DNA from: Akkermansiaceae bacterium
Lineage (GTDB): Bacteria > Verrucomicrobiota > Verrucomicrobiia > Verrucomicrobiales > Akkermansiaceae
Reading direction: 5' to 3'
Length of the DNA stretch: 48,345 nt
Assembly: GCA_025362955.1 (NCBI GenBank)
Contig: JANYFB010000308.1
Coordinates: 1 to 48,345, forward strand
Translations under genes and position numbers: made by a program
The notes under the pieces: model-generated
Seen by the model: only the letters and a program-made list of their open reading frames with translations
Told to the model about the DNA's origin: nothing
The model's database searches: none
Shown here: one piece after another, positions 10,283 to 44,527 of the stretch
How the letters are laid out: each line of letters opens with the position of its first letter
Numbering within the stretch: position 1 is the first letter of the stretch

Positions 10283-10287
10283 ATTTT

Positions 10288-16224: not shown

Positions 16225-17094
16225 TTGAACGCAACCCTGCACAACCCCGTGTTCCGTCTGGGAATCCGCGCCCACGACATCGGTCAGTTTCCCGCCAAGG
16301 TCTTGGCACGCATGGTTTCGGACAAGGGATTGGACTGTGTCCAACTTGCCTTGGGAAAGGCCATTGAGGGATTGGACCTTAAACCAGGGCTGATCACTAC
16401 AGCCTTGGCTGCCGAGATAGGTGGAGCCTTTGCAACACATGACGTGCGGATCGAGGTTCTGGGTTGTTATATCAATCCAATCCATCCCGATTTGACAGTT
16501 AGAAAATCACTGCTGGGACTGTTTAAGGAGCATTTGAGGCACGCGCGGGAGTTCGGTTGCAACATCGTGGCACTCGAAAGCGGATCTTTAAACGCTGATT
16601 ATTCGCCTCATCCGGGCAACTCGGGCGAAGCCGCGTTTCTTGAGCTATTGGAAAGTGTCCGCGAACTGGTAGCTGAGGCGGAATGCTGCGGAGTCTGCGT
16701 CGGAATTGAGGCGGTGACCCACCATGTGCTTTCGACACCCGAGCGGATGCGGCGCTTATTGGATGAGATTCCTTCGCCCCACCTGCAGGTGGTTTTCGAT
16801 CCAGTGAACCTTCTCTCGCTGGAGAATTGGGTGGCGCAGCGTGAGATTTTGCAGCGTTCGTTCGATCTGTTTGGGGATCGAATCGGCGTGGTCCACGCGA
16901 AAGATTTCCGGATCGGGCAGGGCCGTCTGCTGGTCTGTCCAGCGGGCACCGGGCTGTTGGATTTCAGACTGATCCTTTCCTGGCTGGCACGCCACAAGCC
17001 TGGGATAGCAATGTTGTTAGAAGAGGTCGCTCCAGAACACATCGCCTCGTGCGCCAGTCATCTTGAATATTCCAAATATCTATCCATTTCATGA
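16225..17094 (+). CDS. Sugar phosphate isomerase/epimerase (xylose-isomerase-like TIM barrel)
   Basis: A cytoplasmic TIM-barrel protein of the AP-endonuclease-2/sugar isomerase family. Metal-ligand-type residues appear in the usual order: 'VALESGS' near residue 115, 'CVGIEAVTHHVL' near 160, 'LQVVFDPVNLL' near 190, 'IGVVHAKDFR' near 223 and 'MLLEEVAPE' near 268. I place the start at TTG 16225 (289 aa), preceded by CAGGCGA at a good distance and downstream of the predicted promoter; the annotated ATG 16138 would put the operator inside the gene. It probably converts a monosaccharide released by the pathway; the substrate is not visible. Its stop overlaps the next ATG. Confidence 0.82.
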   Translation: MNATLHNPVFRLGIRAHDIGQFPAKVLARMVSDKGLDCVQLALGKAIEGLDLKPGLITTALAAEIGGAFATHDVRIEVLGCYINPIHPDLTVRKSLLGLFKEHLRHAREFGCNIVALESGSLNADYSPHPGNSGEAAFLELLESVRELVAEAECCGVCVGIEAVTHHVLSTPERMRRLLDEIPSPHLQVVFDPVNLLSLENWVAQREILQRSFDLFGDRIGVVHAKDFRIGQGRLLVCPAGTGLLDFRLILSWLARHKPGIAMLLEEVAPEHIASCASHLEYSKYLSIS

Positions 17095-18899
17095 AAAGTC
17101 CGTTGAAAACCGTCAGCAGGATCGGAGACAAGCTCATCCGTGACACGCCATTTGAATACCGCCTGGAAGTCGCCAAGGTGACACATCTGTTGGACAGGAT
17201 GCATTGTGTGGATTTCGGCCGGACATTCGGACTCGGTCGTGCGGCGGTGGCCTATGCTTGGACCTGTCTCACCTGTGTGGAGGAGACGGTTTTATCCCTC
17301 CAGGTGGAGCACAACGACGGCTGCAGCATCTGGTTGAACGGCGAGTTAGTTTACAAACAATTCGGTGACCGTGTCATCCAATTGCATTTCGAGGAGCGCA
17401 GCCTGGTGATGTCAAACGAAGTCGTACTGCAGTTGCGCCGAGGCACGAACTCCCTGCTGGTAAAGTCCGAAACCCGTGGTGAGGAATGGAAGGTTTTTGT
17501 CCAGCCACCCGCCACGAAGGGTGCGGTTCTCGCCGAAGATCCATGCCATCCGGAAATCGGTCTGCACGGGGTGAGGAACATCGATCCGAAAGTCGCGGGG
17601 TTGTCGAACTGGCTGGTGGTAGGGCCGTTTGCGAATCCCTCCGATGGCTCCCGTCGCACGGGTCTTGAAGAAGTGATGGCACCTGAAGCTGAGTTTCGCT
17701 TCGGTAGGATGTACGCCGGAATCGACGGTCCCGTGACATGGACGATTCCCAAGGTGGAAGTCCTCGGCGGATTAATCGATCCATTGCCCTGGGGGACCAA
17801 CTATAACTGGAACTATCACAACGGCGGTGTGGCGTGGGCGATGCAGGAGCTGGCGGATCTTTCAGGGGATTCACAATACAGCGCCTATGCGTCCCGTTTC
17901 TGCGACTTCCATCTCGATGGCATCCCCTTCGTCAGCTATCAGGTGAAAAAACTGAATGCCGTGGACTCGGCGAACCATTTCATCATCGACACTCCGTTGC
18001 TGGATTTCACGCTGGCACCGTCGTTGCCGTTTATCAGCCGCCTGCGGAGGGAGGCCTGGTTTCCCAAGCGGGAGAGATATGTCAATTGGATCGCACAAAT
18101 GATCCGATATGCGCGCGACACGCAGGTCCGCCTGCCAGCCCACAACATTTTCACACGCACCACTCCAGTAGAATTCACGACGTGGGTGGATGACATGTTT
18201 ATGGGTATCCCTTTCCTGGTGCAGGCGGCGCTTTATTGCGATGGCGAAGACGCGCGCGCCGCGTTCATGGACGATGCCGCCCATCAGGTGTTAGAATTCA
18301 ACACCCAGGTTTGGGACGATGAGGCAGCGCTATACATGCATGCCCGTTACCATGGAAATCCGGTGAAACTGCCCCATTGGTCGCGCTGCAACGGCTGGGC
18401 GATCTGGGCGATGAGCGAGGTGCTCATACATCTGCCTCCGTCACATAAAGACTATCAGAAAATTCTCGCCCATTACAGAACCCACTGCACATCACTACTC
18501 CGATATCAGCACGCAAGCGGACTTTGGCCGAATGTGCTCGATCACCCGGAATCGGCATTGGAAGTCTCGGGATCTGCGATTTTCGTGATGGCGATGGCAC
18601 GCGGTGTGATGCACGGCTGGCTGGACGCGGCGGTCTATCAGGCGGCGGTCATCAAGGGCTGGAATGGTCTGGCATCCCGCATCGAGGACGACGGCACGGT
18701 TCACGGGATTTGTGTGGGGACGATGTGTACCGAGGATGTGAATTACTACGTGAACCGCCCGTTTTATGACAACGATACGCACGGATTGTTCGCAGTCTTG
18801 TTCGCGGGAATAGAAGTGGAGCGGATGCTGGGAGCGCCTGCTAGTCGCGATGAAATGGAGGCGGATCATTTGGCAATGCGAGCGCCGGTGACGGCCTGA
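17091..18899 (+). CDS. GH105/GH88-like unsaturated uronyl hydrolase with N-terminal beta-sandwich
   Basis: A 602-aa protein with no signal peptide. Residues 1-190 form a beta-sandwich of the kind attached to GH2-type enzymes ('VEHNDGCSIWLNGELVY'). Residues 200-590 are a six-hairpin domain with GH105 hallmarks: 'TTWVDDMFMGIPFL' near residue 365 containing the catalytic Asp, 'WSRCNGWAIWAMSEVL' near 427, and 'SALEVSGSAIFVMAMARGV' near 490. Such enzymes hydrate and release the 4,5-unsaturated uronic acid left at chain ends by polysaccharide lyases, which fits the heparinase-fold proteins nearby. The N-terminal sandwich is an unusual addition for GH105. The ATG overlaps the isomerase stop. Confidence 0.85.
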   Translation: MKSPLKTVSRIGDKLIRDTPFEYRLEVAKVTHLLDRMHCVDFGRTFGLGRAAVAYAWTCLTCVEETVLSLQVEHNDGCSIWLNGELVYKQFGDRVIQLHFEERSLVMSNEVVLQLRRGTNSLLVKSETRGEEWKVFVQPPATKGAVLAEDPCHPEIGLHGVRNIDPKVAGLSNWLVVGPFANPSDGSRRTGLEEVMAPEAEFRFGRMYAGIDGPVTWTIPKVEVLGGLIDPLPWGTNYNWNYHNGGVAWAMQELADLSGDSQYSAYASRFCDFHLDGIPFVSYQVKKLNAVDSANHFIIDTPLLDFTLAPSLPFISRLRREAWFPKRERYVNWIAQMIRYARDTQVRLPAHNIFTRTTPVEFTTWVDDMFMGIPFLVQAALYCDGEDARAAFMDDAAHQVLEFNTQVWDDEAALYMHARYHGNPVKLPHWSRCNGWAIWAMSEVLIHLPPSHKDYQKILAHYRTHCTSLLRYQHASGLWPNVLDHPESALEVSGSAIFVMAMARGVMHGWLDAAVYQAAVIKGWNGLASRIEDDGTVHGICVGTMCTEDVNYYVNRPFYDNDTHGLFAVLFAGIEVERMLGAPASRDEMEADHLAMRAPVTA

Positions 18900-18959
18900 C
18901 ATCGTCGAATCCCCTTGTATTTCCGGGCGTCCGGGATTGTCCTTAACCTCCGACAAGCT

Positions 18960-20126
18960 GTGAAATCCAAAAAGAAACGCATTGCCCTGATCGGACTGCC
19001 GGTCCTGCAGTCGGTGAACAACCTTTCCAACGCCGCGATAGCCCGGCACGCGGAAGAGGGAGGCAACTGGAGCTTCGTATTCAGCGCTGAGGCTTCGGTG
19101 GATGCTTTCAAATTCCTTAGAACCTTGAATTGTGACGGTGCCATCGTCCGCATCATGAATACGGCGATGCTGCGCGAGGCTAAAAAAGTCCAGTTTCCGC
19201 TGGTGAATGTGTCGTCGTGGTTAGAAAAACCAGGAGTGCCCACCGTGCGGCACGACTACGCTGCGGTAGGCCGGATGGCTGCGGAACACCTGTTAGAAAA
19301 AGGCTTCCGCCGCTTCGGCTGTGTGGTGGTGCCGGGAGGCTGGTTTCTGGAACAGCGACACAATGCTCTCGTCCGCTCGATCCGTGAGCACGGAGGCTCC
19401 TTGAAGTCGTTTCATCTGGAAACCACGATGCCGGGCCTTATCCAACCCGTTACTCAAGCCGAGCGGCGTCGCTTCGTGGAGTGGGTGCGGACGCTGCAAC
19501 GCCCGGCGGCACTGGTTCTGATGGACGATTGGGATGCCCCACTTCTGATGGAACTTTGTCGCGAGGCGGGCTACGAGGTTCCGCGGGATCTGGTGATGAT
19601 CACCACCGGCTGCCACAGCGAGGTGCTGCCTCTCTGCCGGGTGCCTCTGAGCGCCGTCCAGGAGGATCAGGAGCTCCAAGCAAGACTCGCCGTCGGATGC
19701 CTTGATGTTCTCATGACCGACAAGCAACCGCGCGAGACGATGATCAGCGTGCCGCCTCTTGGAATCGTGGAGCGGGCTTCAACCGCCACCATGGCCATTG
19801 AGGATCTCGAGGTTGCTCATGCCGTCGAGTTCATCCGTGGCCATGGGTTTGAACCGATCAACGTGACTGATGTCAGTAGCCGGGTGCAAGTCGCGCGGGT
19901 GACGCTCGAGCGGCGTTTCCGACAGTTGATGGGCAAGACCATGCACGAGTACCTCACCGAGCTGCGGGTGCGCCGGGCGAAAGAATTGTTAGGCGGCGAA
20001 TCACCTCTCAGTCTTCAAGCCATCGCCCAGCAATGTGGTCTGGCGGACCGCAGGCGTCTCAACCAAGTGTTCATCAGCGTTACCGGGAAAACACCTGCGG
20101 CGTGGCAGCAGGAGCAATCGGAGTAA
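18960..20126 (+). CDS. XylR-like transcriptional regulator (periplasmic-binding-type sugar sensor + AraC HTH)
   Basis: A DNA-binding regulator of about 388 aa. Residues 10-270 form a LacI/periplasmic-binding-like sugar sensor ('RIALIGLPVLQSVNN', 'VVVPGGWFLEQRHNALV', 'LMDDWDAPLLMELCREAGY'). Residues 285-385 carry a double AraC helix-turn-helix ('VTLERRFRQLMGKTMHEYL', 'SLQAIAQQCGLADRRRLNQV'), the XylR arrangement. The track starts at TTG 18915; GTG 18960, directly before 'KSKKKRIAL', suits the domain better, but neither start has a strong ribosome site. It follows GH105 by 60 bp and ends 12 bp before the operator at 20138. It is the best candidate for the protein that binds the five 21-bp-phased sites. 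Confidence 0.88.
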   Translation: MKSKKKRIALIGLPVLQSVNNLSNAAIARHAEEGGNWSFVFSAEASVDAFKFLRTLNCDGAIVRIMNTAMLREAKKVQFPLVNVSSWLEKPGVPTVRHDYAAVGRMAAEHLLEKGFRRFGCVVVPGGWFLEQRHNALVRSIREHGGSLKSFHLETTMPGLIQPVTQAERRRFVEWVRTLQRPAALVLMDDWDAPLLMELCREAGYEVPRDLVMITTGCHSEVLPLCRVPLSAVQEDQELQARLAVGCLDVLMTDKQPRETMISVPPLGIVERASTATMAIEDLEVAHAVEFIRGHGFEPINVTDVSSRVQVARVTLERRFRQLMGKTMHEYLTELRVRRAKELLGGESPLSLQAIAQQCGLADRRRLNQVFISVTGKTPAAWQQEQSE

Positions 20127-20137
20127 TCACGGTCGGC

Positions 20138-20175: not shown

Positions 20176-20187
20176 GTCTCCGGGTGC

Positions 20188-20193
20188 GATACC
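20188..20193 (+). promoter_or_regulatory. Predicted -10 element GATACC
   Basis: GATACC lies 12 bp after the CCCCT of the operator, as in copy 2. It implies transcription from about 20200, downstream of the track start codon at 20184, and so supports ATG 20232 as the real start of the next gene. Confidence 0.45.
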
Positions 20194-20231
20194 TGCTGTT
20201 ATTGTTTCAACCCATTCTTGGTTTCGAGTCC

Positions 20232-23200
20232 ATGACCATAGTTCGCTTTTTTTTCAGTCTAGCAGTTTTATCCTGCTTTTTACTGCTCGGCTCCCCGGCC
20301 TTGCTTGCTGGCCCTGACGATCCCGCCTTGCGTGCGAAGGTAATTCCTGCAGGCCAGCCCCTCACCGCGGCCCACCAACCGATTCTTGCGCTGCCACTCT
20401 TTGGCCCTGCCTCCGCCACACTGGTCGCGGAGGCGTTTCAGTTTGCTCCGACAAATTATGTTTGGTCGCAGGTTCTGCCCGTGTCCTCGCATCTCCATGC
20501 TGCCAAAGCAGCGGTCACTTTCGGAGCCACCTCAACCTCCGTCCCGCAGACCAGCGTTTCGTTTCCCGAGCGTGGCATTTATGAACTGCAGGTGGTCGCT
20601 ACCGACGGTACCACCAACGCATCCCACTCCATCTGGATTCAAGTTTGGGACCGTCTCTCGGGATTGAATCCGCTCCAGCAGATCGGCCGCAGTCCGGGCA
20701 TCGCGCCGCCTACTTCCGTCCGCCAACTCTCGCCCGATCCCGGTCCCTATCAGCACCCGCGACTGCTATTCTCTGATGCTGACTGGCCCGAATTCAATGC
20801 CAAGAGCACCGCATCTACCGATGTCGCCAGTTCGCTGGCGTCCCTGCAAACCTCACTGAATAGCAATTTCGACAAAACCACCGGAAGCCTCCGTCTTTAT
20901 GCCAATGCCCTCGTCACATGGTCAAATGGAGGCTTTGGTTCAAGTGCATTTACCTCCAGCGTCCTACCTGTTTATAATTATTCCGCTAGCAGCATTCTAT
21001 GCCGTGATCCCGGCGGTCAAATGCCCGATGCCCTGCTTGCCGCCGCTTATCTGGCATGGGTTCGCACCAATCCCGCGCTGGCACAAAGCGCTGTGCCTGT
21101 CTCTGATCAGGCGCGTTTCCGCTACCTTGCTCAGGTCGCCGCTGCCGCCGCCCGCGCGGAACTCACCCGTGCCGAAATTGGAGCGTCAGCCAGCCCGCCA
21201 GTTACTCCCGTTCCAGCGCATGATATGGCGGTCGTTTACGATTTACTTTATGATTGGATGACCGAGGCCCAGCGCACCGATTTCCGCGATTATCTCTACG
21301 CCATCGGCTACGGTTACTACAATACCGGTGGTGGTGGCATCGCCCGCAACGTGCAACCTACTTATTCCGCCAATGGCGATTTTCCGAATCTAGCGGATGC
21401 CGTCACCTTATCCGCACTGGCCATCGAGGGTGAGGAAGCGAGCGTATCTCCCGCCATCATAGCCATCCATGGTCCGACCGCACCCGTCGCCACCGGACCG
21501 GATGCTTGGCCGCATGCCTCGCCCGCCTCGGTGTGGAACACCTACCGCATGGCCCGTTGGTATTCTGAATATTTCATCACTCCATGGGGCTCCCCGCTCA
21601 ACCACCACGCCTATCTGGAATTAAGCACCGGATCATCCGCCGGTGCCATGCTCGCGATTGCCCGCCGCGGACAAAATATTTTCGTCACCGGCAATCTCTA
21701 TCAGGCGTCGCTCCATGCCTTCAATAACCTTAACCCGCGCCCGTCCGATGGTAATATGGTCCTATGGGATCACCACGATAGCATGGGCTTCGGAAATGGC
21801 CCCAATGCGTACGCCGGACGCTATATCCTGCGCTATATGTTCCCCGACGATCCACTGATGGACTACGTTTACGCGTCGTTCCGTCGCGAAAACAACAATT
21901 CGTTTCTCACTGCTGTCTTCCATGTGGACCGGGCAACACCGTCGCTTTCGACCGTCGCGACCGCCAAGCAAGCTTCGCTCACCCGCTTCGATCCCTTTCG
22001 CGGAGCCGCAGTCACCCGCAATTCGTGGGCGGAAAACGACCTCTCTCTCTACTTCGAGTGCCGCCCTGACGTTCAGGGCCACATGCACGCCGAGGCTAAC
22101 AATTTCTCGCTCTACGCACTGGGCCGTGCTTGGGCCTCGCCTTCTGGCTATCACATCACGGTCAATGACGCCGCCTCCACCGTCCTCATTCAAGATCCTA
22201 CCCTTGCCGCTGATCCTGCTACCCAAGGTTACATCGGGCAAAGCGGCAGCTCCGCCACTACCACCACCAGCCGCAGCCAGTTTCCCACACCACCGGCCAA
22301 GTTTCTCGAAGCCACTGAAGATCCCGGTGGTCATTGGGCGCTATTCGCCGGTGATGCCACTTCCGCGTATCAATATGCCTTCGAGCGAAACGGCACCAAT
22401 GTGAACACCGGTCGGCGCACTGCATCCTATTACTACGGCGAATCGCGTGCCCAGCTCTATGCCGGCTATGATGCTGCGGCCGATAATGCCACTCTATCTG
22501 CTAGTAATCTTGCCTACAATCCCGTCCAGTATGCCCTGCGCTCCACTCTAACAGTGCGTGGTCCCCGCCCCTACGTGCTGGTCATGGACGACATTACTAC
22601 CGATGGCGTTACTCCACGAAATTTCCGCTGGAACATGTCCGCCGCAGTGAGTTTCGGCGGCAGCGGCGGCCGTTACGTCAATGCCCTTGGCCAGGAAGTT
22701 TATTCGTCCATGCGGATTCAACCCGGCTCCACCGCCACCGATGCCGTCCTCTATCACGAGGCCGATGCGGTCTCCGGCCCGCGCCTGCTAGTGCGCGATC
22801 TCACGGAGCAATCCACCTCAGGCCAGCCATCCATTTTCCTCGATACCCGCCCGTCCAACCATCCGGGCGGAGCACTCACCTATGGTTATGATAACAACTC
22901 GGGCACGTTTACTAACTTCTCCAGCAATCGCTTGCTCATCCCCCGCCTGAACGTTGTGAGTCCGAAATTCAAGATTCTGCTTTTCCCCCATCAGTCTGGC
23001 GAACTTACCCCGCTGACTTCGTGGAATGCCGCGCAAACCATCGCCACCATCGATCTGCGCAACGGCTTCACCGACCATCTAACACTTGACTCCACCCGCG
23101 CCGACAAACGCACCCGCGTCACCGCCTTCACCCGCACCAAGTCTGGTCGCGCCGCGCCTGTCCTCACCCTTCCGGGCAATATCACGATTGCCGCTGTTGC

Positions 23201-26200
23201 CGCCACTCCCGCCTTTACCGGCCAGCCAGGTGCTGTCGTCACCTTCAGCGTTGCCGCGACTTCCGATACCGCCGCAAGCCTCACCCCGTCGGTTAGCTCG
23301 CCCTCCGGCACCATTTTTCCCGCCGGGGCGAATACCGTTTTCGTTACCGCCACCGATAGCGAAGGTCAGGTCAGCTCCGGCCAATTCACCGTCACCGTCG
23401 TTCCCGCCGGACCCGTTGTCACCGTCACTTCGGCCACCAATTTCCCCGGCGCGACTGATGGCGTGAACCTCCGCTGGACGCCTGTCACCCGCGCCACCTC
23501 CTACTCGGTCAAGCATGCCACCACTTCCGGTGGCCCCTACACCGTCGTTTCGGAGCGCCAGACCGGCCTCACATTCGGGGAAATCGGTCTGCCGGATGCC
23601 GTCTATCGCTACGTCGTTACGGCATGGTTCGATGACTTGGAAGGTGCCCCAAGTGCGGAAATATCGCTGGCGCCGCCTGTTAGCGGACCCTTTCTTGGCA
23701 CTCAGATCGGCACTGCGGTCAGCGATACCGGCGTCTATCGGGATGGCAATAACTACCTTCTAACCGCCCGGTCGGGAAATAGCGGCGGCTCGGGTGACAA
23801 TGTCGCATACGCCTACACGCCGTGGACCGGCGATGGCTCCTTCATCGTCCGCGCCACTTCGCTAACAGGCTTCGGGGCGAATGTTAGCGAGTTCCTCAAT
23901 CTCGGGATCAGCCTTCGCGCCAGCCTCGCCAGCAACGCCATTTCGGCGCTCTCCGGCTACACCAGCCATCCCGCCGGCCCGTGGTTGTTTTCCTATCGCA
24001 CTGCCACCGGCGGCGGTTCGACCTCGGCGGGACCGGGCATTTCCGGCTACCAGCCACTGCCACTATGGTTCCGCGCCACCCGCGTAGGTAATTTCGTCAC
24101 GGCGTTCTATTCTTATGAGGGCAACACCTGGACCCCTATGACTGCTGGCACCACGCTGAACCTCCCGCCCACCTGCTTCGTCGGTTTCGCGTTAGGGGCG
24201 CAAAACACCACTCTCACCAGCGCGGTTTTCGATAACATCGTCTTCCTCGGTAAGCCCGCCGTCACCACGACCGCCACCTCGGCCACGCTCGATTGGTCCG
24301 GTGCCACCGCCCGTTCTTTCTCAGTCCAGCGCGGTTCATCACCCGCCGGCCCATTCACAACCATTGCCGAGGGACTGGAAACGACAACCTACACCGATCT
24401 AGCAGTCTCCCCCGGTCAGGTCTTTTATTACACCGTCACCGGCATCAGTGAGAACGGAAGCTCGACTGTTAGCCCGGCCGTGAAGGGCGCGATCACCAAG
24501 ATTAACTTCAATCTGCCCGCACCGATCAGCGCGACTACCGACAACGCGGCGGGTGCCCCCGTGACGTTCAGCGTCACTGCCAGCGACACAATCGACGGCA
24601 GTCTAACACCCTCCGTCGCGCCGGTATCCGGTAGCATCTTCGCCCCTGGGACCACTCAAGTCATGGTCACCGCCACCAATTCCAATGGGATCATTGCCAC
24701 GGCATCGTTTCCGGTCACAGTCACGTTACTTGCCCCGCAAAGTCCGACCAATTTTACCGTCACCTCCGGCTTCACCACGAATGCCCTCACTTGGTCTGCC
24801 GCCACCGGCGCGGTCAACTATTTGGTGAGACGCGCCACCTCCGTTGGTGGCCCCTACACCCTGATAGCCACTGTTCCAAGCGGCACCACGGCTTATACCG
24901 ACACCGGCCTCGTCACCGGGGTCACTTATTTCTATAAGGTCTCATCCATCAACCCCACCGCTGAATCTGCCGCTACTGCCACGACCGGAGGCACGCCGAT
25001 CCCCGGCACTGCCACCAAGGCGAACAACACCACCGCGCTCGATCTCGGCGCGAGTTGGAGCACGGGCACCGTGCCCACTCCCGCGGACGCCGCGCTGTGG
25101 AATGGAACTTATGCAAATGGCAGCGTCGCCATCGGCAGCGGACTCGCGGTGAGCCGACTTCAGCTAACAAGTCCGTCGCAGGGCATCACGATCAACTCCG
25201 GCACGGGTCCGCTGGCACTGGGTTCGGGCGGCCTCGACATGAGCGCCGCCACCCAGAATCTAACGATCAATGCACCCGTCTCGCTGGCCACCAGCCAAAG
25301 CTGGAACATTTCCAGTGGCCGCACGCTCACCGTCAACGCCGGGGTGGGGGAAAGCGTCGCGAATCAGGGAATCAACCTCGACGGTTTCGGGACAATCGTT
25401 CTATCAGGGGTAAATGCCTTTTCCGGCTCACTGCTGATGGCTCCGCCTGCGGGTGGACTTACGGTCTATAAATACGGCGGGAACAATCCTTCTTCCTATC
25501 TCAAGCTCACCGGCGGCAGTTCGCCAGGGCCGATCACCGCGCAGGGCCGGCTCGATATCACCGGCGGTCTTTCCAATATCGGGACGCTGTCGGGAAGCGG
25601 AGCGATCGGCTTGATCTATAACTCGAGCACGGTGGGCAACATCATCCGGTTCTCGGCGGGCAGCAGTTTCTCGATGTTCCAGATCGGGGCGAACAATGCC
25701 AGCGCCACCCTGCGGCAGACCGGCGTGGGCGGCGTATCGTTTGCTTACTTCGGTTACAATTCCGCCTCGCCCGGTGCTGTGCACACTTTCGACGGCGGAA
25801 CCTGGGTGATCAACCAGATCGGCCAGAACAACACCGGCGCCCAAACCAGCGGCACCTGCACCATCACTAACGGCGCGAATTTAACAGTTACGAACGGTGG
25901 CTTCGCGCATGGAACCTGGAACGTTACTAACGGACAGATGCAGTTCGGCAGTGCCGTTAGCGAGGGTAACGGGAGCAGCACCGCCAATGCCACCTCACTC
26001 GTCTTCAATGTAAATAATTCGGGCGGCGCTCCGGGCTTCTTGAAATTCGCTAACACCCTGACTCTGGCTGACGGCGGCAGCGCTACTAACACCAACTCGC
26101 TGGTCATCGGAAACGGCGGCACGGTGCAAATCCTGCCGAGCGGGCAATTGACTCTCGGCAGCACCACTGCACGCACGGCGGAAAACGATACCGTCACATT

Positions 26201-27122
26201 GCAAAGCGGCGGCAAACTCATTCTTAACGGAACGCTCGCCGCCGCTGCTACCGCCGCCGGACAAACGCGCGTGTTCGAGTGGACCGGCGGACAGTTGACT
26301 GCATCCGTCATCACCGCTGGCGCAGGCTTCACGTCTCCCGCCTCCGGCGGCGGATTGACGGCAACCACTCTGGCGCAAAATTCCGGCACCCTCGCCCCCG
26401 GTGACGTGGGAATCGCTGGCAAGACCTCGATCACCGGAGCCTACAGCCTTGGCGCCTCGGGCACACTTGCGATCGACCTTGGCGGCACTACTCAGGCCAC
26501 CGCATTCCAGACCGGCCAATACGATTACCTAACCGTGTCCGGCACCACGGTGCTGGCAGGAAAACTTTCGGTGAATTTGGTTAGCGGCTTTACACCATCC
26601 AATGCGACCCCCTTTACTGTGGTGAACTCCACTGGCGCACTCACCGGCGGGTTCTCCAATGTCGCCGCCGGGCAGCGGGTAGGCACCTCCGGCGGGGAAG
26701 GAAGTTTCCTCGTCAGCACTGCCAGCAACAAGGTCACCCTCAGCGGCTACACGGCACTCACTCCACTTCAATCCTGGCGATTTGCATATCTCGGCGATAT
26801 CAATTCTCCTGACACTGCCGATCCGGATGGTGACGGCATGGCCAACCTGATGGAGTATGCTCTCGGCACCCTGCCGAACTCCGCCGCGTCCATGGTGGCG
26901 CCTGTTCTAGCCACAGTGGCAGACCGGCTCACGTTAAATTTCACCCGCGTCCGTAGCGACGTGACCTACATCGTCGAGGCGGGCTCCAATCTCGCAACAT
27001 GGACGTCGCTCGCCATTAACCCCGGCATAGTCGGCCAAAACGTCACCGTGACGGACAGCGTCCGTATTTCCACTGCCAATCCGCCGCGCCGTTTTCTCCG
27101 CCTCAGGGTCAGCAATCCATGA
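20232..27122 (+). CDS. Giant secreted multidomain heparinase II/III-fold protein with HYR, FN3 and autotransporter-like repeats
   Basis: About 2296 aa from ATG 20232, which yields the signal peptide 'MTIVRFFFSLAVLSCFLLLG'; the track Met at 20184 precedes the predicted promoter start. Approximate layout: PKD-like 40-150; heparinase II/III toroid and sandwich 172-970 ('HPRLLFSDADWPEF', later 'GHMHAEANNFSLYALGRAWA'); HYR 978-1055; FN3 1062-1150; concanavalin-like 1154-1339; FN3; HYR 1424-1499; FN3 1501-1584; autotransporter-associated beta-strand region 1594-2172; and a C-terminal domain from 2175 with 'DPDGDGMANLMEYALGT' (calcium-loop-like) and a beta-sandwich. The catalytic part should cleave a uronate polymer; the rest looks built for surface attachment or carbohydrate binding. 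No beta-barrel follows the repeats, so it is not a classical autotransporter. Confidence 0.85.
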   Translation: MTIVRFFFSLAVLSCFLLLGSPALLAGPDDPALRAKVIPAGQPLTAAHQPILALPLFGPASATLVAEAFQFAPTNYVWSQVLPVSSHLHAAKAAVTFGATSTSVPQTSVSFPERGIYELQVVATDGTTNASHSIWIQVWDRLSGLNPLQQIGRSPGIAPPTSVRQLSPDPGPYQHPRLLFSDADWPEFNAKSTASTDVASSLASLQTSLNSNFDKTTGSLRLYANALVTWSNGGFGSSAFTSSVLPVYNYSASSILCRDPGGQMPDALLAAAYLAWVRTNPALAQSAVPVSDQARFRYLAQVAAAAARAELTRAEIGASASPPVTPVPAHDMAVVYDLLYDWMTEAQRTDFRDYLYAIGYGYYNTGGGGIARNVQPTYSANGDFPNLADAVTLSALAIEGEEASVSPAIIAIHGPTAPVATGPDAWPHASPASVWNTYRMARWYSEYFITPWGSPLNHHAYLELSTGSSAGAMLAIARRGQNIFVTGNLYQASLHAFNNLNPRPSDGNMVLWDHHDSMGFGNGPNAYAGRYILRYMFPDDPLMDYVYASFRRENNNSFLTAVFHVDRATPSLSTVATAKQASLTRFDPFRGAAVTRNSWAENDLSLYFECRPDVQGHMHAEANNFSLYALGRAWASPSGYHITVNDAASTVLIQDPTLAADPATQGYIGQSGSSATTTTSRSQFPTPPAKFLEATEDPGGHWALFAGDATSAYQYAFERNGTNVNTGRRTASYYYGESRAQLYAGYDAAADNATLSASNLAYNPVQYALRSTLTVRGPRPYVLVMDDITTDGVTPRNFRWNMSAAVSFGGSGGRYVNALGQEVYSSMRIQPGSTATDAVLYHEADAVSGPRLLVRDLTEQSTSGQPSIFLDTRPSNHPGGALTYGYDNNSGTFTNFSSNRLLIPRLNVVSPKFKILLFPHQSGELTPLTSWNAAQTIATIDLRNGFTDHLTLDSTRADKRTRVTAFTRTKSGRAAPVLTLPGNITIAAVAATPAFTGQPGAVVTFSVAATSDTAASLTPSVSSPSGTIFPAGANTVFVTATDSEGQVSSGQFTVTVVPAGPVVTVTSATNFPGATDGVNLRWTPVTRATSYSVKHATTSGGPYTVVSERQTGLTFGEIGLPDAVYRYVVTAWFDDLEGAPSAEISLAPPVSGPFLGTQIGTAVSDTGVYRDGNNYLLTARSGNSGGSGDNVAYAYTPWTGDGSFIVRATSLTGFGANVSEFLNLGISLRASLASNAISALSGYTSHPAGPWLFSYRTATGGGSTSAGPGISGYQPLPLWFRATRVGNFVTAFYSYEGNTWTPMTAGTTLNLPPTCFVGFALGAQNTTLTSAVFDNIVFLGKPAVTTTATSATLDWSGATARSFSVQRGSSPAGPFTTIAEGLETTTYTDLAVSPGQVFYYTVTGISENGSSTVSPAVKGAITKINFNLPAPISATTDNAAGAPVTFSVTASDTIDGSLTPSVAPVSGSIFAPGTTQVMVTATNSNGIIATASFPVTVTLLAPQSPTNFTVTSGFTTNALTWSAATGAVNYLVRRATSVGGPYTLIATVPSGTTAYTDTGLVTGVTYFYKVSSINPTAESAATATTGGTPIPGTATKANNTTALDLGASWSTGTVPTPADAALWNGTYANGSVAIGSGLAVSRLQLTSPSQGITINSGTGPLALGSGGLDMSAATQNLTINAPVSLATSQSWNISSGRTLTVNAGVGESVANQGINLDGFGTIVLSGVNAFSGSLLMAPPAGGLTVYKYGGNNPSSYLKLTGGSSPGPITAQGRLDITGGLSNIGTLSGSGAIGLIYNSSTVGNIIRFSAGSSFSMFQIGANNASATLRQTGVGGVSFAYFGYNSASPGAVHTFDGGTWVINQIGQNNTGAQTSGTCTITNGANLTVTNGGFAHGTWNVTNGQMQFGSAVSEGNGSSTANATSLVFNVNNSGGAPGFLKFANTLTLADGGSATNTNSLVIGNGGTVQILPSGQLTLGSTTARTAENDTVTLQSGGKLILNGTLAAAATAAGQTRVFEWTGGQLTASVITAGAGFTSPASGGGLTATTLAQNSGTLAPGDVGIAGKTSITGAYSLGASGTLAIDLGGTTQATAFQTGQYDYLTVSGTTVLAGKLSVNLVSGFTPSNATPFTVVNSTGALTGGFSNVAAGQRVGTSGGEGSFLVSTASNKVTLSGYTALTPLQSWRFAYLGDINSPDTADPDGDGMANLMEYALGTLPNSAASMVAPVLATVADRLTLNFTRVRSDVTYIVEAGSNLATWTSLAINPGIVGQNVTVTDSVRISTANPPRRFLRLRVSNP

Positions 27123-30100
27123 ATAAATTTCTAGCAAATCATTCCCAAGGAACGTTAGGGCTGCTCCTTGCAGCGGGAAAGATCATGGGCGGCTCAATCT
27201 GCAGTTGGCTGTTTTTGATTACCGCACCGGCCGACGCGGCCACGAAATCTTGGGATGGGGGAGGGGCGGTGGATAACTGGAGCGATAGCCTGAATTGGAA
27301 TGCCGACGGCGTGCCGAGTTCGAGTGATGTGGTGGTGCTCGATAACAGCGTGGTCAGCCCGTTGTCGACGATCAATGCCCTGTCCGGCGCCAATTGCGGG
27401 ACGTTGAGGTTCGATGGCACTGTGACTGGTAATTTTCTCAGCTATGCCGGGGCCACGCCTTATGTCCTGAATATTTATGGCGCAACGGTCAATGCCGTGA
27501 ACACCGGCCCGCTCATTACAGTCACTGCGAACGCCCAGTCTTCCTGCGCCGTCAACAAGCTGAATTTTCAGCTTCGCACGAACGGCGAGTTCTATGTCGA
27601 GACCGGGAAAAAGCTCACTCTAACCAACAGTTTTATTTCCGAATCCGGCTCGCGTGTTCTAACGAAATCAGGCGCCGGCACGCTCGACTTTTCGGGTAGT
27701 GGACCAAAAGTGACCTTCACGGGCGGCCTCAACATCGCGGCGGGCATATTCAACCCTTCGGCTCACACGTTATGCCTGCCCACATCAGGAACGATCACCT
27801 TTACGAATCCAGTTGGCACTCCAGCGGAAATCCAGTCCAGCCAAAGTCACACGATTGCCGCTCTCGCCGGTGGAAATGTGGACAGCACCCTTATTGTCAC
27901 AGGCACCAGCGGACTGACGGTGAATGGCTCGGCTAACACCACGTTCGGAGGTGTCATTTTGGACAACGATACCGGAACTAGCCTCACAGCTCTAACTTAC
28001 TCAGGCAGCGGCTCGCTCACGCTTACGGGTGCGAACACCTACTCAGGCGCAACGACCATCACCTCCGGCAAGCTCGCCCTTGGTTCCACGGGTTCCCTCG
28101 ACAGCCTTATTTTTGCAATCTCAGGTGGCGCGAAGTTCGATGTCAGCGCGCTGGCGTCCGGCTTCACCCTTGGCAGCGGCGGCACGCTCACCGGAGGCTC
28201 CGGCGTAAACGCAGGCCTCGTGAGTGGCTCCTTCATCGCAGGGAGCAACTCCACCATCTCGCCGGGTGGCACGGGGACGGGGACACTCTCTTTTTCTAAC
28301 GGTTTCACTCTCGTTTCGGGTGGCCACTTGCCTTTCCACCTCAATAGCACGACGCCGGGTACGGGCTACGATCAACTCCTCGTCACGGGTGGTAACGTCG
28401 CTCTCGCTGGCGACCTGGGTGGTTCCCTGTTGGGCTACGCTCCGGCGATCGGCGATACCTTTTACCTTATCCGCAATACGGGGTCCGGCAGCACGAGCGG
28501 AACCCTCAATGGAATCGCAAATGGCGGCAAGCTGGACTTTGGCGGCCAGTGGTTTCGCGTCAGTTTCACCTCCGTTCAAGGCGGCGCGGGTTTCCAGACT
28601 GCAGGGACCGGAAAAGATGTCGCCATCCAGCGAATCAATGATCCGACTCCCAGTGCATTCAAGGCCTCCATCGTCGGCCCCACCGACCAGAGCGTGGTCC
28701 AACTTCAAATAACTTGGCAGGACAACGCCTCGACTGAAACGGGCTTCCATATTTACCGAGTCGGGGATGGCGGCACTTTGCAACTCGTCTCTACGCTCGC
28801 CGCCAATGCGACATCGTATTCGGAAACGATCTCTGGTTCCTCGATTTTTACTTACGCGATTCAGGCTTTCAATGCCTCTGGCCCAGTCGGCGATCTCAAT
28901 TACGTAACTTCCCCCAACTTGGGGAATACTCTCGCCGACCGCCAGAACTTGATCCTCAACTACCTCAACACTAACACGCCCAATCTCGGCCAGACCGGCG
29001 CCGGCCCGCACCGCGTCGGCCGCACCGGATTCTGGTTCGGCGAGGGCCGCCTGCAACGTGGCGACACCGTTACGGGCCTGAACTACATCGCCACCGCCGT
29101 GGAGGATGCCGATGCCGAAAGCTCCAACGCGGGCTTCTCACTGTGGCCGGGTATGGACGCCTACTTCCGCTGGGGTTCCATGTTCTCTCCCGCGCTAAAA
29201 AGCCGCTATCAGACGATCTACACTTCCGCTTCCCGCTACAACGCGGGCTCGACGCCGAATCAGCGCTTCATGATCTGCGCGGCCTCTTATCTGGCCAACA
29301 CAGTCTGGGGGACCGCTACTAACACGGTCTCCAACGCCGGTTACCAGACCATCAACCTCCTCGGGCAAGTGGATAACACCACGGCCACCGATCACACCGG
29401 CCTGACCTACCTAAAAAAGGAAACCGAGCGCACTCCGCGCCGAGGCTTCGAGGAGGATGACTCCGTCCATTATCTGCACTTCACCCTCGCCCCGACCCGG
29501 ACACTGGCCCTGTTTGCAGCCGATCCAGACCTACGGAACAAGGCTCGGATGGTGTTCGACTACGGCATGGCCGTAGGGGCATCGGGTTGGTCAAACGGCC
29601 GGAGCGCGATTTCCTCCTCCCGCGGTGGTGTCACCGGTCAGCAGAACGCCTACGACATCACGACGCGGACGTATTGGCTCGGATTCGGAGGCGTGACACC
29701 CGGCAGTTTCACCGAAGCCGAAAACACGGCCATTTTCGCCCAGCCTGACTTCACCGGGGTGCTGCCCGAGATCGCCGCTGCCGCCACCGACCGCACGCAG
29801 TCCTACACGCGCAGGTCCATCGCCCAACGCCAGATCGGCCCCGAAGTCATCTACTTCAAGCAAACCTGGATGACGCCGCACTACGCGTTGTGGAGTCAGG
29901 CCGAAGGCGAAGTCGGGTTCAATCCCGGAGACGCTAGCTTTACCCTCAAAAATCTCAACGTCCAGGCGATCCACGATGGCTGGCAGGCTCAACGCTGGGC
30001 GCTGGTGTGGGACGATCCGACCAGTTCCGATTCCCTCATCAGACTAACCGCCCCGACCAACTACAGCACTGCGACGAACGCGGGGATGTCCATCTACGAA

Positions 30101-32083
30101 GACACCCTTCAGAAGGAGGACACGATGGTCGCCGTTTACAACATCCCGACCAACGATTTCACCAGCGGCAACAACGGCGTGTCACCCTGCCACCTGCTCA
30201 ACGGTCACATCTCTCTCAACTACCTCGCGATCACTGACGAAGCGGCCACCAGCGGTCGGATCTTCCTGCATTATAACAACGTCCTGGTTGCCCTCTACCT
30301 CAGCGCGCCTTTTTCCTGGTCTAACGATTTTCAAATCAGCCCATGGAGCAAGGGCTCGCTCGCCGTGGAAACGGCTCCCCTCAGTGACTACCCACAGGCT
30401 ACTGCGGCTGCGCGACTAGCCGCATTTCGAAGCGATGTGCTCACTAATGGAAGTGTCAACATCAGCTCAATCAACGCTACAGCCCCGCGTTTTATCTATA
30501 AAACACGAAAAGGCCGTATCCTCGACCTGACCTATGGCCAAGCCGGCATCGTGGACAGCGATCCCGTGGATTACCTCCAGTGGCCCATGCTGGAGAGTCC
30601 GACGATGTACCAACCGCAAATGGGAAATCTAACCATCACCGGGCCCAACCGCACCATTCTTTATAACTATAACGATTGGACAACGACTATCAACAACCGT
30701 CCGACCCTTTCCTCCACGCCGCTTTTCACGCTTTCCGCTCCTATGGACATTGACCTCGCCACACGGGCAAGTGACGTGGAAACGACTTCCAGTAAATTGG
30801 CCTTCGCCGTAAGCGGTGCGAGCAACGGCACGGTGCAACTCCTGCCGGATGGTCATACGGCGCGCTTTACCCCAACCGCGGGCTACCTCGGTGCTGCGGC
30901 CTACAACATCGCGGTGAATGACCGTGGGATCGATCCGAGGCTTGTGCTGGACTATGACTTCGAATCGCCCTCCACGCTTTCCGGCGGGATAATCGACGTT
31001 TCCCGCAATGCCCGCGACGCTACCGCACAAGCCGTGGCCAGCGGCACCGCGAGCCTTGATGCGGATGTTCCTTCGCCACTCGGTGCTAACAGCGCCCAAT
31101 CCCTGCGGCTCAATGAAAACGGCACGTCGGGCTACCGGCTGTCCCGCACCGTTACGCCGAGCAACCTGCAGATGAGCAATGGGAGCTGGACCTTTGCGAC
31201 CTGGTTCAAGCGGGCAAGTCGCACCACGGACGATTTCATCTTCTACGCTGGAAATGGCGATGGTTTGGGCGGCAGCGGCGATGAACTCCAACTCTGTTGC
31301 GCGGCTAACACAGATACCCTGTCCTTGAAGCATTATAACGCAGCGAATGTAATGGACATTAATCTCTCCTCCGCTGTCACCGTTGGCGTCAATGAATGGC
31401 ATCATGTCGCACTCACATTTACCCGTACCTCCGCGAATACCGGCACTGTGCGGTTATATCGGGATGGTGTGCTTTCCGCCACCTCCACTCCTATCACTTG
31501 GGCGCTGCATCAGGATGTGCCTCTCATCTTCGGTGGCCACGCTTCGACGAGTGCTTCGATCAATCGTTACTTCAACGGTTGGCTCGATGACCTCGCGCTT
31601 TTCCGCGGAGCGTTAGATGCTGGCGAACTTGCCAATCTCGCTCGGCAGAGTGTGGCTACCTTTGGGGGGCTCAGTGCAGGCGGTACGGTGAACGTCATGG
31701 TTCTCACGCCATTGCAGGCATGGCGTCGGCAATATTTCGGCACCACCGCGAATACAGGCGCAGCAGCCGATACGTCTGATCCCGACGGCGACGGCGCGGC
31801 CAACTTGCTCGAGTATGCGCTCGGAACCGCCCCGGATTCCGCAGCCTCCACTGTGAAGCCCGTACTGGGAAAATCTGGGAATTTTCTGACCTTGAGCTTT
31901 TCCCGATTGCGCGGCGACCTCACCTACGTGGTCGAGGGAAGCTCCAATCTTACCACATGGTTGCCCGTTGCCAGTAACCCCGGCATGGTCGGGGGGGCTG
32001 TTACGGTGACTGACAGCTTCAATATTTCTAACTCGAATCCGCCTCGCCGCTTCCTGCGCCTGCGGGCAATGTCCACTCCATGA
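27119..32083 (+). CDS. Giant secreted multidomain protein: autotransporter-like repeats, FN3, unassigned toroid enzyme, LamG, C-terminal sorting-like domain
   Basis: A 1654-aa exported protein whose ATG overlaps the stop of the previous giant gene. Signal peptide to 'APADAAT' near residue 40. Residues 45-500 are autotransporter-associated beta-strand repeats ('GSGSLTLTGANTYSGATTI'). FN3 at about 510-595. Residues 600-1185 are a helical toroid followed by a beta-sandwich ('GPHRVGRTGFWFGEGRLQRG', 'RGFEEDDSVHYLHFTLAP'), an enzyme-like module I cannot assign; a polysaccharide lyase is the likeliest reading. A cadherin-like domain (1195-1270) and a LamG domain (1275-1515, 'VNEWHHVALTFT') follow. 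The last 120 residues repeat the C-terminal domain of the preceding protein. Confidence 0.8.
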   Translation: MNKFLANHSQGTLGLLLAAGKIMGGSICSWLFLITAPADAATKSWDGGGAVDNWSDSLNWNADGVPSSSDVVVLDNSVVSPLSTINALSGANCGTLRFDGTVTGNFLSYAGATPYVLNIYGATVNAVNTGPLITVTANAQSSCAVNKLNFQLRTNGEFYVETGKKLTLTNSFISESGSRVLTKSGAGTLDFSGSGPKVTFTGGLNIAAGIFNPSAHTLCLPTSGTITFTNPVGTPAEIQSSQSHTIAALAGGNVDSTLIVTGTSGLTVNGSANTTFGGVILDNDTGTSLTALTYSGSGSLTLTGANTYSGATTITSGKLALGSTGSLDSLIFAISGGAKFDVSALASGFTLGSGGTLTGGSGVNAGLVSGSFIAGSNSTISPGGTGTGTLSFSNGFTLVSGGHLPFHLNSTTPGTGYDQLLVTGGNVALAGDLGGSLLGYAPAIGDTFYLIRNTGSGSTSGTLNGIANGGKLDFGGQWFRVSFTSVQGGAGFQTAGTGKDVAIQRINDPTPSAFKASIVGPTDQSVVQLQITWQDNASTETGFHIYRVGDGGTLQLVSTLAANATSYSETISGSSIFTYAIQAFNASGPVGDLNYVTSPNLGNTLADRQNLILNYLNTNTPNLGQTGAGPHRVGRTGFWFGEGRLQRGDTVTGLNYIATAVEDADAESSNAGFSLWPGMDAYFRWGSMFSPALKSRYQTIYTSASRYNAGSTPNQRFMICAASYLANTVWGTATNTVSNAGYQTINLLGQVDNTTATDHTGLTYLKKETERTPRRGFEEDDSVHYLHFTLAPTRTLALFAADPDLRNKARMVFDYGMAVGASGWSNGRSAISSSRGGVTGQQNAYDITTRTYWLGFGGVTPGSFTEAENTAIFAQPDFTGVLPEIAAAATDRTQSYTRRSIAQRQIGPEVIYFKQTWMTPHYALWSQAEGEVGFNPGDASFTLKNLNVQAIHDGWQAQRWALVWDDPTSSDSLIRLTAPTNYSTATNAGMSIYEDTLQKEDTMVAVYNIPTNDFTSGNNGVSPCHLLNGHISLNYLAITDEAATSGRIFLHYNNVLVALYLSAPFSWSNDFQISPWSKGSLAVETAPLSDYPQATAAARLAAFRSDVLTNGSVNISSINATAPRFIYKTRKGRILDLTYGQAGIVDSDPVDYLQWPMLESPTMYQPQMGNLTITGPNRTILYNYNDWTTTINNRPTLSSTPLFTLSAPMDIDLATRASDVETTSSKLAFAVSGASNGTVQLLPDGHTARFTPTAGYLGAAAYNIAVNDRGIDPRLVLDYDFESPSTLSGGIIDVSRNARDATAQAVASGTASLDADVPSPLGANSAQSLRLNENGTSGYRLSRTVTPSNLQMSNGSWTFATWFKRASRTTDDFIFYAGNGDGLGGSGDELQLCCAANTDTLSLKHYNAANVMDINLSSAVTVGVNEWHHVALTFTRTSANTGTVRLYRDGVLSATSTPITWALHQDVPLIFGGHASTSASINRYFNGWLDDLALFRGALDAGELANLARQSVATFGGLSAGGTVNVMVLTPLQAWRRQYFGTTANTGAAADTSDPDGDGAANLLEYALGTAPDSAASTVKPVLGKSGNFLTLSFSRLRGDLTYVVEGSSNLTTWLPVASNPGMVGGAVTVTDSFNISNSNPPRRFLRLRAMSTP

Positions 32084-32102: not shown

Positions 32103-34268
32103 ATGATATCACACCGTTACTCGATCCTGTTAAATCTGGCGGTTTTTGGCCTCGCCGGTTTCGCTATGGCGAAAGACAAAAGCCTTACCCTCTACGTTTC
32201 CCCCAGCGGTGACAACGCCCGCGACGGGCACACGGAAGCAGGAGCGTTCCAGTCAATCAATCGCGCCCGAGATGAAATTCGCAAACTTAAATCCGGCGGG
32301 ACGATGCCTGACAATGGGGTCACCGTCGAAATTCTGGGGGGTAAGTATGTGTTGAAGGATTCCCTCGATTTCAATGAATCGGATTCGGGCACCGCCCCGG
32401 CACCGGTGATCTATCGCGCCTTCAGAAATCAGACTGTGGAGCTAATCGGCGGGCGGGTGTTGCAGACCTCAGACCTGCGCCCTGTTGCCGACGCAGCGAT
32501 GTTGAAACGCCTCGATCCTGCGGCGAAGGGCAAGGTGCTTTGCGCATCAATCGCGGCGCTTGGCTTGAGCCACGCAGATCCATATCCCCCAAAATTCGAT
32601 GATAACGGCGGGATTTTCGAATTGTTTTGGAACGGCAAACGCCTGCCCATTTCGCGCTGGCCTAACGAAGGCTGGACGACCATGAAAGCGGCCATCGTCA
32701 ACGGGGATAACAAGACGCCCGGCGTGTTCGAGTATCGCGATGACCGCCCCGAACGTTGGGTGAACAATCCCAACGTCTGGCTCAAAGGACAGTGGCGGGT
32801 GGCCTGGGAGGAACCGGCGATCAAGGTCGCAAAGATTGACGCTGTCGCACGCAAGATCACCTTTGCCGAAGGGATCGCCCAAGGCATCGGCAATAAATAC
32901 ACGCGCCCAGCCGGTAACGGCAAGGAACCTTGGTGCGCGCTGAATCTTCTGGAGGAAATCGACACGCCGGGCGAGTGGGCAATCGATTTCGCCACCCGGA
33001 CATTGTATTTCTGGCCACCGGATGGCTCGGGTGAACTGAGTATTTCGCAACTCGAAAAGCCGATGATCACGGTGAACGGAGCGGCTCATTTGCAATTCAT
33101 CGGCCTGACTCTCGAATGTTCGCTCGGTGATGGTATAGTCATCCAAAAAGCGGAGTCGAACCTGATCGCCGGGTGCACCTTTCGCAACCTGGCTAAGAGT
33201 GGGGTGGTGATAGACGGTTACCGCAGCGGTGTGCGAAGTTGTGACATGTATGATCTCGGCGCGGGATGCATCCAGATTTCCGGCGGCGATCACAAACAGC
33301 TCACCCGATCGGAGAACTTCGTGATCAACAACCATCTGCATGACTACGGGAAATTGAAGGCAATGTATTCCGCAGCGGTGGATGTTGGCTTCGGTGGTGC
33401 TTCGAATGCGGTAAATCACAAGATCGCAGTGGGCGTGCGGGTGGCTAACAACCTGATCCACGATGCTCCGCGTGACGCCGTGCTGGTGTCCGGTCAGGAC
33501 AATCTCTTCGAGTTGAATGAAATCTATCGCTGCGGTTTCGCCTCGGCGGATGTAGGCGCATTCTACTCATGGCTCGACTGGACAATCCGCGGAGTGGTCA
33601 TCCGCCACAACTACATTCATGACACTGTCGGCGGAGTGAATCCAGATGATGGTGCGTCAGGTAGCCTTATTGAGGGCAATATCTTCGCCGGTCCGCGCAC
33701 CGGTGTTTGGATTGCCTCCGGCTCGGATCACATCACGACTAACAACATTTTTATAAAAAACGAAGGGCCGGTGTTCGGCATGGACGATCGTGGTGTAAGC
33801 CGGGGCTACGCAAAGAATCCAAAACTGCTAGATGGTGTCAATGGGATCAAGCCACAGGAAAAACCGTGGTCCAAGCATTTCCCGGAGATGGCCACTTTGC
33901 TTGAAAGCCATCCCGAACTTCCTTTGCGGACAAAGTTCACCAAAAACCTCGTCGTGATCCAGAGCGGAGATCCTCTAAATTTGAAGTTAAACAAGGAGAA
34001 CAAGGCAAATCCCGCCCTGTTTGAAAGCAGCGGAAATTTTGTTACAGCTACCGATCCCGGTTTCATGGATGTGGCTAACGGAAATCTTGGGCTAAAATCG
34101 GACTCCGAAGTTTTCAGTAAAATCCCCGGCTTCAAGCCGATCCCATTCGAGAAGATCGGACTCTTAAAAGATGAGTATCGTCGCAAATTGCCAGACAGCA
34201 GTGTCACCCGCCGTCCCAAGGGTAATCCGATGTTTAAGAAAGAGGACGAGAAAAATTTCGGCACATGA
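32103..34268 (+). CDS. Secreted right-handed parallel beta-helix enzyme
   Basis: A 721-aa exported protein. After a signal peptide ending 'GFAMAKD' comes the pattern 'LYVSPSGDNARDGHTEAGAF', the typical opening of beta-helix glycosidases and lyases such as the GH141/GH120-like groups. The helix coils are visible from about residue 330 to 570 ('ESNLIAGCTFRNLAKSGVVI', 'GSLIEGNIFAGPRTGVWIAS'). A 'FELFWNGKRLPISRWPNEG' block near 175 is common in this architecture. Exact family and sugar specificity are not decidable by eye; a glycosidase acting on side chains is plausible from the context. It lies 19 bp after the giant gene. Confidence 0.78.
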   Translation: MISHRYSILLNLAVFGLAGFAMAKDKSLTLYVSPSGDNARDGHTEAGAFQSINRARDEIRKLKSGGTMPDNGVTVEILGGKYVLKDSLDFNESDSGTAPAPVIYRAFRNQTVELIGGRVLQTSDLRPVADAAMLKRLDPAAKGKVLCASIAALGLSHADPYPPKFDDNGGIFELFWNGKRLPISRWPNEGWTTMKAAIVNGDNKTPGVFEYRDDRPERWVNNPNVWLKGQWRVAWEEPAIKVAKIDAVARKITFAEGIAQGIGNKYTRPAGNGKEPWCALNLLEEIDTPGEWAIDFATRTLYFWPPDGSGELSISQLEKPMITVNGAAHLQFIGLTLECSLGDGIVIQKAESNLIAGCTFRNLAKSGVVIDGYRSGVRSCDMYDLGAGCIQISGGDHKQLTRSENFVINNHLHDYGKLKAMYSAAVDVGFGGASNAVNHKIAVGVRVANNLIHDAPRDAVLVSGQDNLFELNEIYRCGFASADVGAFYSWLDWTIRGVVIRHNYIHDTVGGVNPDDGASGSLIEGNIFAGPRTGVWIASGSDHITTNNIFIKNEGPVFGMDDRGVSRGYAKNPKLLDGVNGIKPQEKPWSKHFPEMATLLESHPELPLRTKFTKNLVVIQSGDPLNLKLNKENKANPALFESSGNFVTATDPGFMDVANGNLGLKSDSEVFSKIPGFKPIPFEKIGLLKDEYRRKLPDSSVTRRPKGNPMFKKEDEKNFGT

Positions 34269-44518: not shown

Positions 44519-44527
44519 GTTTGAAAA

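Follow-up and report, generated by a model that had tools for sequence, protein, structure and literature searches.

Tandem giant proteins with lyase-like modules in an Akkermansiaceae bacterium share a C-terminal domain that is common in Verrucomicrobiota

Background

Verrucomicrobiota are major polysaccharide degraders of lakes, soils and guts; to our knowledge, the export and positioning of their giant enzymes are poorly known. The draft genome of a freshwater-type Akkermansiaceae bacterium (GCA_025362955.1, 3.9 Mb in 352 contigs; hereafter G000) contains, on contig JANYFB010000308.1 (C78), two adjacent genes, p1 and p2, for proteins of 2296 and 1654 aa. A first-pass annotation, made from the sequence alone, described these proteins as combinations of lyase modules with binding modules and autotransporter-like repeats that lack the expected beta-barrel, and suggested that they form paired surface-bound degradation machines. 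The locus thus raises the question of what these giants do, whether they act as a pair, and how they are exported and placed when neither ends in a barrel. Here, "the window" denotes the whole stretch of DNA analysed, 48,345 nucleotides of this contig.

Results and discussion

Gene pair and module architecture

The gene lengths and boundaries given in the first-pass annotation are correct, and the coupling that it proposed is seen as an ATGA overlap between the p1 stop and the p2 start (Table 1). The two frames are not fortuitous because each is a single open reading frame of such size with homologs. Both proteins begin with a signal-peptide-like segment (residues ~1-26 in p1 and ~1-41 in p2).

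In p1, the enzyme module, M1, comes first and is followed by HYR, FN3 domains and a DUF1349-like stretch, beta-strand repeats and a C-terminal domain (CTD), whereas p2 starts with PATR repeats, followed by M2, a Big_9 region, LamG and the CTD; the enzyme-first versus repeats-first arrangement noted earlier is thus borne out. The accessory modules hold in part: HYR and FN3 are present in p1 and LamG in p2, but p1 contains no LamG, and the FN3-like stretch of p2 has no match to any model. Likewise, autotransporter-type repeats had been ascribed to both proteins, but PATR scores are obtained for p2 only, with no Pfam PATR match in p1, the repeat region included. The DUF1349-like stretch of p1 is a probable concanavalin-like binding module, a call that goes back to similarity to a protein (L077) whose own DUF1349 match is below the cut-off.

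No tandem repeats are detected at the DNA level, so that p1 and p2 are repetitive in protein sequence only and their repeats have diverged. Scans for promoters and terminators give signals that are not clearly above those of shuffled sequence, and neither RNA families nor tRNAs are found in the window. GC skew is strongly negative over p1 and p2 (-0.08 to -0.20 in 20001-32000) and mostly positive over the genes before them, which probably reflects Ser/Thr/Ala-rich coding rather than a boundary.

Table 1. Genes and predicted modules in the window
Feature	Coordinates	Strand	Residues	Description
Symporter fusion	4350..6959	+		kelch/mutarotase-like + sodium:solute symporter
GH43	10279..11808	+		GH43 + GH43_C2
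M1 gene	13578..16133	+		one in-frame TAA (15174-15176)
Uronyl hydrolase	17091..18899	+		GH88/GH105-type (PF07470)
Regulator	18915..20126	+		AraC-type, sugar-sensing (Peripla_BP_3 + HTH_18), just upstream of p1
p1	20232..27122	+	1-2296	heparinase-type giant; ATG 20232, stop 27122
p1 M1	20709..23156	+	~160-975	predicted heparinase II/III superfamily toroid + beta domains
p1 HYR	23184..23399	+	985-1056	PF02494, 3.6e-6
p1 DUF1349-like	23679..24251	+	~1150-1340	similarity to L077 protein
p1 second HYR-like copy	~24489-24725			p1 self-match
p1 FN3	24732..24980	+	1501-1583	PDB 3mpc, 3.2e-12
p1 beta-strand repeats	25029..26741	+	~1600-2170	homology to parts of CTD proteins that bear PATR
p1 CTD	26757..27119	+	2176-2296	EF-hand-like loop DPDGDGMANLME, six strands, end RRFLRLRVSNP
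ATGA overlap	27119..27122	+		4 nt, p1 stop / p2 start
p2	27119..32083	+	1-1654	M2 giant
p2 beta-strand repeats	27242..28648	+	~42-510	PATR 8.5e-9 / TIGR02601 1.4e-7
p2 M2	28916..30688	+	~600-1190	predicted lyase-like toroid + beta fold
p2 Big_9	30695..30925	+	1193-1269	Ig-like; weak, 0.0034, below cut-off
p2 LamG	31151..31630	+	1345-1504	PF13385, 2.6e-18
p2 CTD	31694..32080	+	1526-1654	
Beta-helix protein	32103..34268	+		right-handed, 721 aa
Acetylesterase	34280..35815	+		SASA-type
M1 gene	35821..38509	+		split over two overlapping ORFs by frameshift near 36.7 kb
GH43	38584..40200	+		GH43 + GH43_C2
M1 gene	44769..48005	+		1078 aa
Second M2 gene, start	48017..48343	+		cut by contig end, directly after M1 gene

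Surrounding locus

Judging by the predicted functions of the neighboring genes (Table 1), to which a sugar isomerase-like TIM barrel is to be added, the region around p1 and p2 is a polysaccharide-degradation locus. Three proteins of the locus (6969-9227, 9167-10282 and 11827-13581) have no match in Pfam or NCBIfam, and the first and the third have none in PDB either. The M1 gene with the in-frame TAA shows homology on both sides of the stop, which indicates either a nonsense mutation or an assembly error. On the minus strand, 40889-44557 encodes a 1222 aa protein, the N-terminus of which matches the Verru_Chthon cassette A and T2SS GspK models; a minus-strand gene of similar size is located near an M1 gene in another genome (G032, L076:7505-11080).

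The p1 enzyme module

A profile search started with 13 M1 homologs identifies in PDB the PL15 alginate lyase Atu3025 (3a0o, 7e-10), dermatan-sulfate epimerase (6hzn, 9e-10), GAGase II (8khv, 1e-6) and PL35 (0.0016), and the profile also matches heparinase II/III. In addition to these matches, M1 of p1 resembles the PL15/epimerase/PL35/GAGase branch in its HPR-L-F entry segment and in the aligned catalytic Tyr and His residues. It differs from this branch in that it stays under every Pfam heparinase cut-off (only DUF4962 scores, below its cut-off as well), in the D to E change of the metal-site motif (GHMHAE), and in being embedded in a 2296 aa multi-module chain.

In the alignment, p1 keeps Tyr461, His617 and His619. 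The first of these aligns with the Tyr that is catalytic in PL15 and dermatan-sulfate epimerase, and the PDB entry 3afl, which we take to be the H531A mutant of Atu3025, would mark the aligned His617 as catalytic. A degradative role for the toroid modules presupposes catalytic residues, and p1 appears to retain them, with Tyr461 and His617 at the aligned catalytic positions. Some M1 paralogs in the window have Lys at the position equivalent to Tyr461; the M1 set is heterogeneous, and p1 is among the members that look competent.

The p2 enzyme module

The lyase assignment of the first-pass annotation is well supported by profile for p1 and extends to p2 by fold only. The p2 module belongs to a family, M2, that consists mostly of standalone proteins of ~620 aa; most of the named carriers are MAGs of Verrucomicrobiota, many apparently of lake or pond origin, and a few are Planctomycetota. 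None of 21 M2 members has a credible match in Pfam, and a PDB sequence search with the M2 profile yields nothing credible. The AlphaFold model of the p2 module (pLDDT 81, pTM 0.87) consists of an alpha toroid followed by beta sheets. A Foldseek search started with this model identifies GAGase VII as the best match (E 2e-6, probability 1.00), along with GAGase II, PL17 and PL15 (to 1e-4), and then PL8. The predicted toroid and beta-sheet architecture of M2 resembles that of GAGase II/VII, PL17 and PL8, and its polar core of conserved Asn, Tyr, Arg and His residues probably has counterparts there; M2 differs from these lyases in having no detectable sequence family and in a low global TM to lyases, 0.29-0.36 (0.34-0.36 in the best matches).

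In the alignment of 48 M2 members, Asn714, Glu779, Tyr785, Arg835 and His1051 are conserved in virtually every sequence, and this polar core is intact in p2, too. The p2 clade has its own residues at positions 783, 789, 828, 836, 837, 839 and 988, which are conserved in the rest of M2. Such departures, at least seven in number and including the RSYPD and ASRPY motifs, might indicate that M2 of p2, although related to lyases, has lost catalysis or serves in binding only; we regard this as unlikely given that the family-wide Asn/Glu/Tyr/Arg/His core is intact across the whole p2 clade and that the substitutions are partly common to this clade, a pattern that fits changed specificity. We read M2 as a lyase-like family in which the p2 clade would have a different specificity, and as a candidate new polysaccharide-lyase family; its standalone ~620 aa members represent a form that is open to direct assay. 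Overall, p1 and p2 are probably giant exported enzymes, namely, lyases acting on acidic polysaccharides.

Pairing of the two giants

In G036, the gene for a giant with the PATR-heparinase-LamG-CTD organization (L080:1030-6174) is joined to an M2 gene through an identical ATGA overlap. The order of modules in this protein is that of p2 (PATR, lyase, Big_9, LamG, CTD), with the difference that the lyase slot is occupied by a bona fide Pfam Hepar_II_III_N/C enzyme. This repetition of gene order and overlap, together with the ATGA coupling of p1 and p2 themselves, the second M1-M2 neighborhood in the window and the nearly matched CTDs of p1 and p2, is compatible with an obligate paired surface machine in which p1 and p2 cut one polymer together. 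However, two p2 orthologs, full or partial, that were found in G002 and G012 adjoin other giants, a pectinesterase giant in the case of G012, with no heparinase module within the stretch seen. The contig of G047 that carries the best match to the p1 module outside G000 contains no M2, and M1 genes are present in only 3 of the 31 M2 loci, which were collected with a pattern from a narrow M2 alignment (a broad alignment yielded no pattern). Furthermore, no interaction domain was found. An obligate pair is thus quite doubtful. The pairing is recurrent but not obligate: the paired machine proposed initially is partly supported, by the signal-peptide-like starts, two lyase-type modules with conserved core residues, the binding modules, the surrounding degradation locus and the recurring order of heparinase giant and M2.

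The missing barrel

The absence of a terminal barrel is confirmed: neither protein has an autotransporter match in Pfam or NCBIfam, and the last ~125 aa of each are modeled as the CTD. This domain, missed in the first-pass annotation, replaces the barrel as the end of both giants. The description of the repeats as autotransporter-like is misleading, considering that the barrel domain PF03797 has no matches in the whole of G000 (the control matched in Escherichia coli and Caulobacter) and that PATR is common there in non-autotransporter proteins. Given the lack of barrel matches in this genome and the presence of other tails on PATR-type giants, the absent barrel is not an anomaly.

The PATR repeats and the existence of true autotransporters in related Akkermansiaceae genomes, with 17 barrel matches in G119, could be taken to mean that p1 and p2 descend, as remnants, from autotransporters or trimeric adhesins in which the barrel was lost. 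We consider this highly improbable because p2 orthologs elsewhere have a full CTD where the barrel would sit, the CTD is phylum-wide, and G000, with no barrel match, offers no living family from which a barrel could have been lost.

Among components of other export routes, G000 encodes three secretins, one exosortase and six PEP-CTERM proteins, the last six of these on other contigs; neither p1 nor p2 has a PEP-CTERM match in Pfam or NCBIfam. The CTD resembles PEP-CTERM in being a short C-terminal module common to exported proteins of one genome that also has an exosortase, but it is a predicted folded domain with an EF-type loop and beta strands and contains neither a PEP motif nor a transmembrane helix. 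To the C-terminal domains of T9SS the CTD can be likened by function only, as a putative beta-type tag that many secreted proteins without relation to each other carry at the C-terminus; models of the Por_Secre_tail type match neither p1 and p2 nor any of 44 CTDs, and a search of G000 for SprA, run without a positive control, gave no matches.

The shared C-terminal domain

The CTD of ~125 aa that ends p1 and p2 contains a Trp, an EF-hand-like loop and six strands, with the consensus ADPDGDGxxNLxEYALG in the loop and RRFLRLRVTxP at the end. Its predicted structure (pLDDT 91.7) combines an EF-type loop with a small six-strand domain, which suggests Ca2+ binding. No Pfam or NCBIfam family covers the domain in a scan of 44 CTDs, a fold search yields no match at E 0.001 (the non-significant ones are mostly FN3-like), and paper searches found no description of it. 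The top PDB sequence matches, to adaptin and calmodulin, are at chance level. The NCBIfam model Amuc_1099, which is pilus-like, matches 22 of the 44 CTDs (best 1e-7), but membership is not counted because the one alignment range examined spans only the ~32-residue EF-loop part.

Of 54 CTD proteins, 49 have the end of the domain no more than 4 residues from the stop, and in an independent sample of 20 proteins from other genera, 18 have it within 5 residues; a few matches are internal. In a survey confined to Verrucomicrobiota, the domain is found in 196 of 289 sampled genomes, with 36 matches in G000, 70 in its relative G237 (a complete genome of 4.0 Mb) and 5 in G119, a minority of them partial, and none in G103. 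Genomes of the Akkermansia type (genus g21, which we take to be Akkermansia) have the domain as well, in a few copies. The proteins that bear the CTD are otherwise unrelated, including a true heparinase, phytase-like, lectin, LRR and PATR proteins, and the domain also occurs on proteins of 294-538 aa that are not giants. An N-terminal hydrophobic stretch is present in 31 of 42 CTD proteins. Tandem CTD genes recur: two more in G032 overlap by 4 nt (L076:1680-1683), and a further case is L140.

Elsewhere in G000, the EF-loop half of the CTD has a match near a secretin gene (C325:527-673 and C325:3401-3823). Together with the Amuc_1099 matches, this allows for a possible link between the CTD and pilus-like machinery.

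A comparable case is the dockerin/cohesin "planctosome" model of freshwater Planctomycetes, in which Ca2+-loop and HYR modules are part of exported degradative complexes (PMC6461901); the p1-p2 pair is similar to it in both kinds of modules. However, dockerin has two EF-type Ca2+ loops, whereas the CTD has only one and no dockerin match.

Exchange of the CTD within the operon

The p1 and p2 CTDs are 62.5% identical and group together (support 97/87), whereas identity between the p2 CTD and those of its orthologs in G002 and G012 is only 30.8%; for the whole of p2, identity to the G002 ortholog is 53%, and for M2 alone, 56%. Since the p2 tail is closer to that of p1 than to those of the orthologs, it has been swapped or homogenised between the neighbors independently of the protein bodies. 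Such exchange within the operon fits a module that serves the whole operon and is not tied to one enzyme.

In our reading, the CTD is a tag for export or attachment that its carriers have in common. More specifically, and tentatively, with odds that we put below even, it could be the tag by which an undescribed export or surface-attachment system, present throughout Verrucomicrobiota, recognises its cargo; in each genome, such a system would handle unrelated enzymes and adhesins by the dozen, and the tag sequence would be kept matched between neighboring cargo genes.

Type II secretion needs no linear tag, and it is conceivable, again at less than even odds, that p1 and p2 leave by this route and are free in the medium, the CTD being a structural end-cap, or a weak glycan-binding module, that prevents aggregation of beta-rich giants. 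The three secretins of G000, the small beta domain with its FN3-like, non-significant fold matches and the few internal CTDs are all compatible with such a role, and T2SS has already been proposed for alginate lyases of another member of Verrucomicrobiota (PMC13274419). However, the CTD also ends proteins other than repeat giants, such as LRR and phytase-like ones and those of 294-538 aa, and its near-absolute C-terminal position and exchange within the operon are better compatible with a recognised tag than with a cap.

Conclusions

The observations on this locus can be combined in a scenario to which we assign a probability of roughly 55%. Under this scenario, p1 and p2 would be depolymerases with multiple modules that are exported via Sec and belong to a single polysaccharide-degradation locus. 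M1 of p1 would be an eliminative lyase of the heparinase II/III superfamily, possibly an epimerase, acting on a uronate-containing polymer, and M2 of p2 would represent a separate family, similar to toroid lyases, that has no name yet and a specificity of its own. The HYR, FN3, LamG and beta-strand repeat regions would provide spacers and binding arms, the repeats not being an autotransporter passenger. The GH88-type hydrolase, the two GH43 enzymes and the esterase of the locus would complete the breakdown of the products, which the symporter would then import. The CTD, with its Ca2+-type loop, would be a portable tag through which many exported proteins of Verrucomicrobiota, otherwise unrelated, are routed or attached to a common putative receptor or exporter.

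In its enzyme content, the locus appears to be a member or variant of known polysaccharide-degradation loci, and the CTD is the part that merits specialist pursuit. Found in two thirds of the sampled genomes of the phylum and lying outside Pfam and NCBIfam, this domain offers a concrete handle, one putative tag with many cargos, on how Verrucomicrobiota export and place their giant enzymes.
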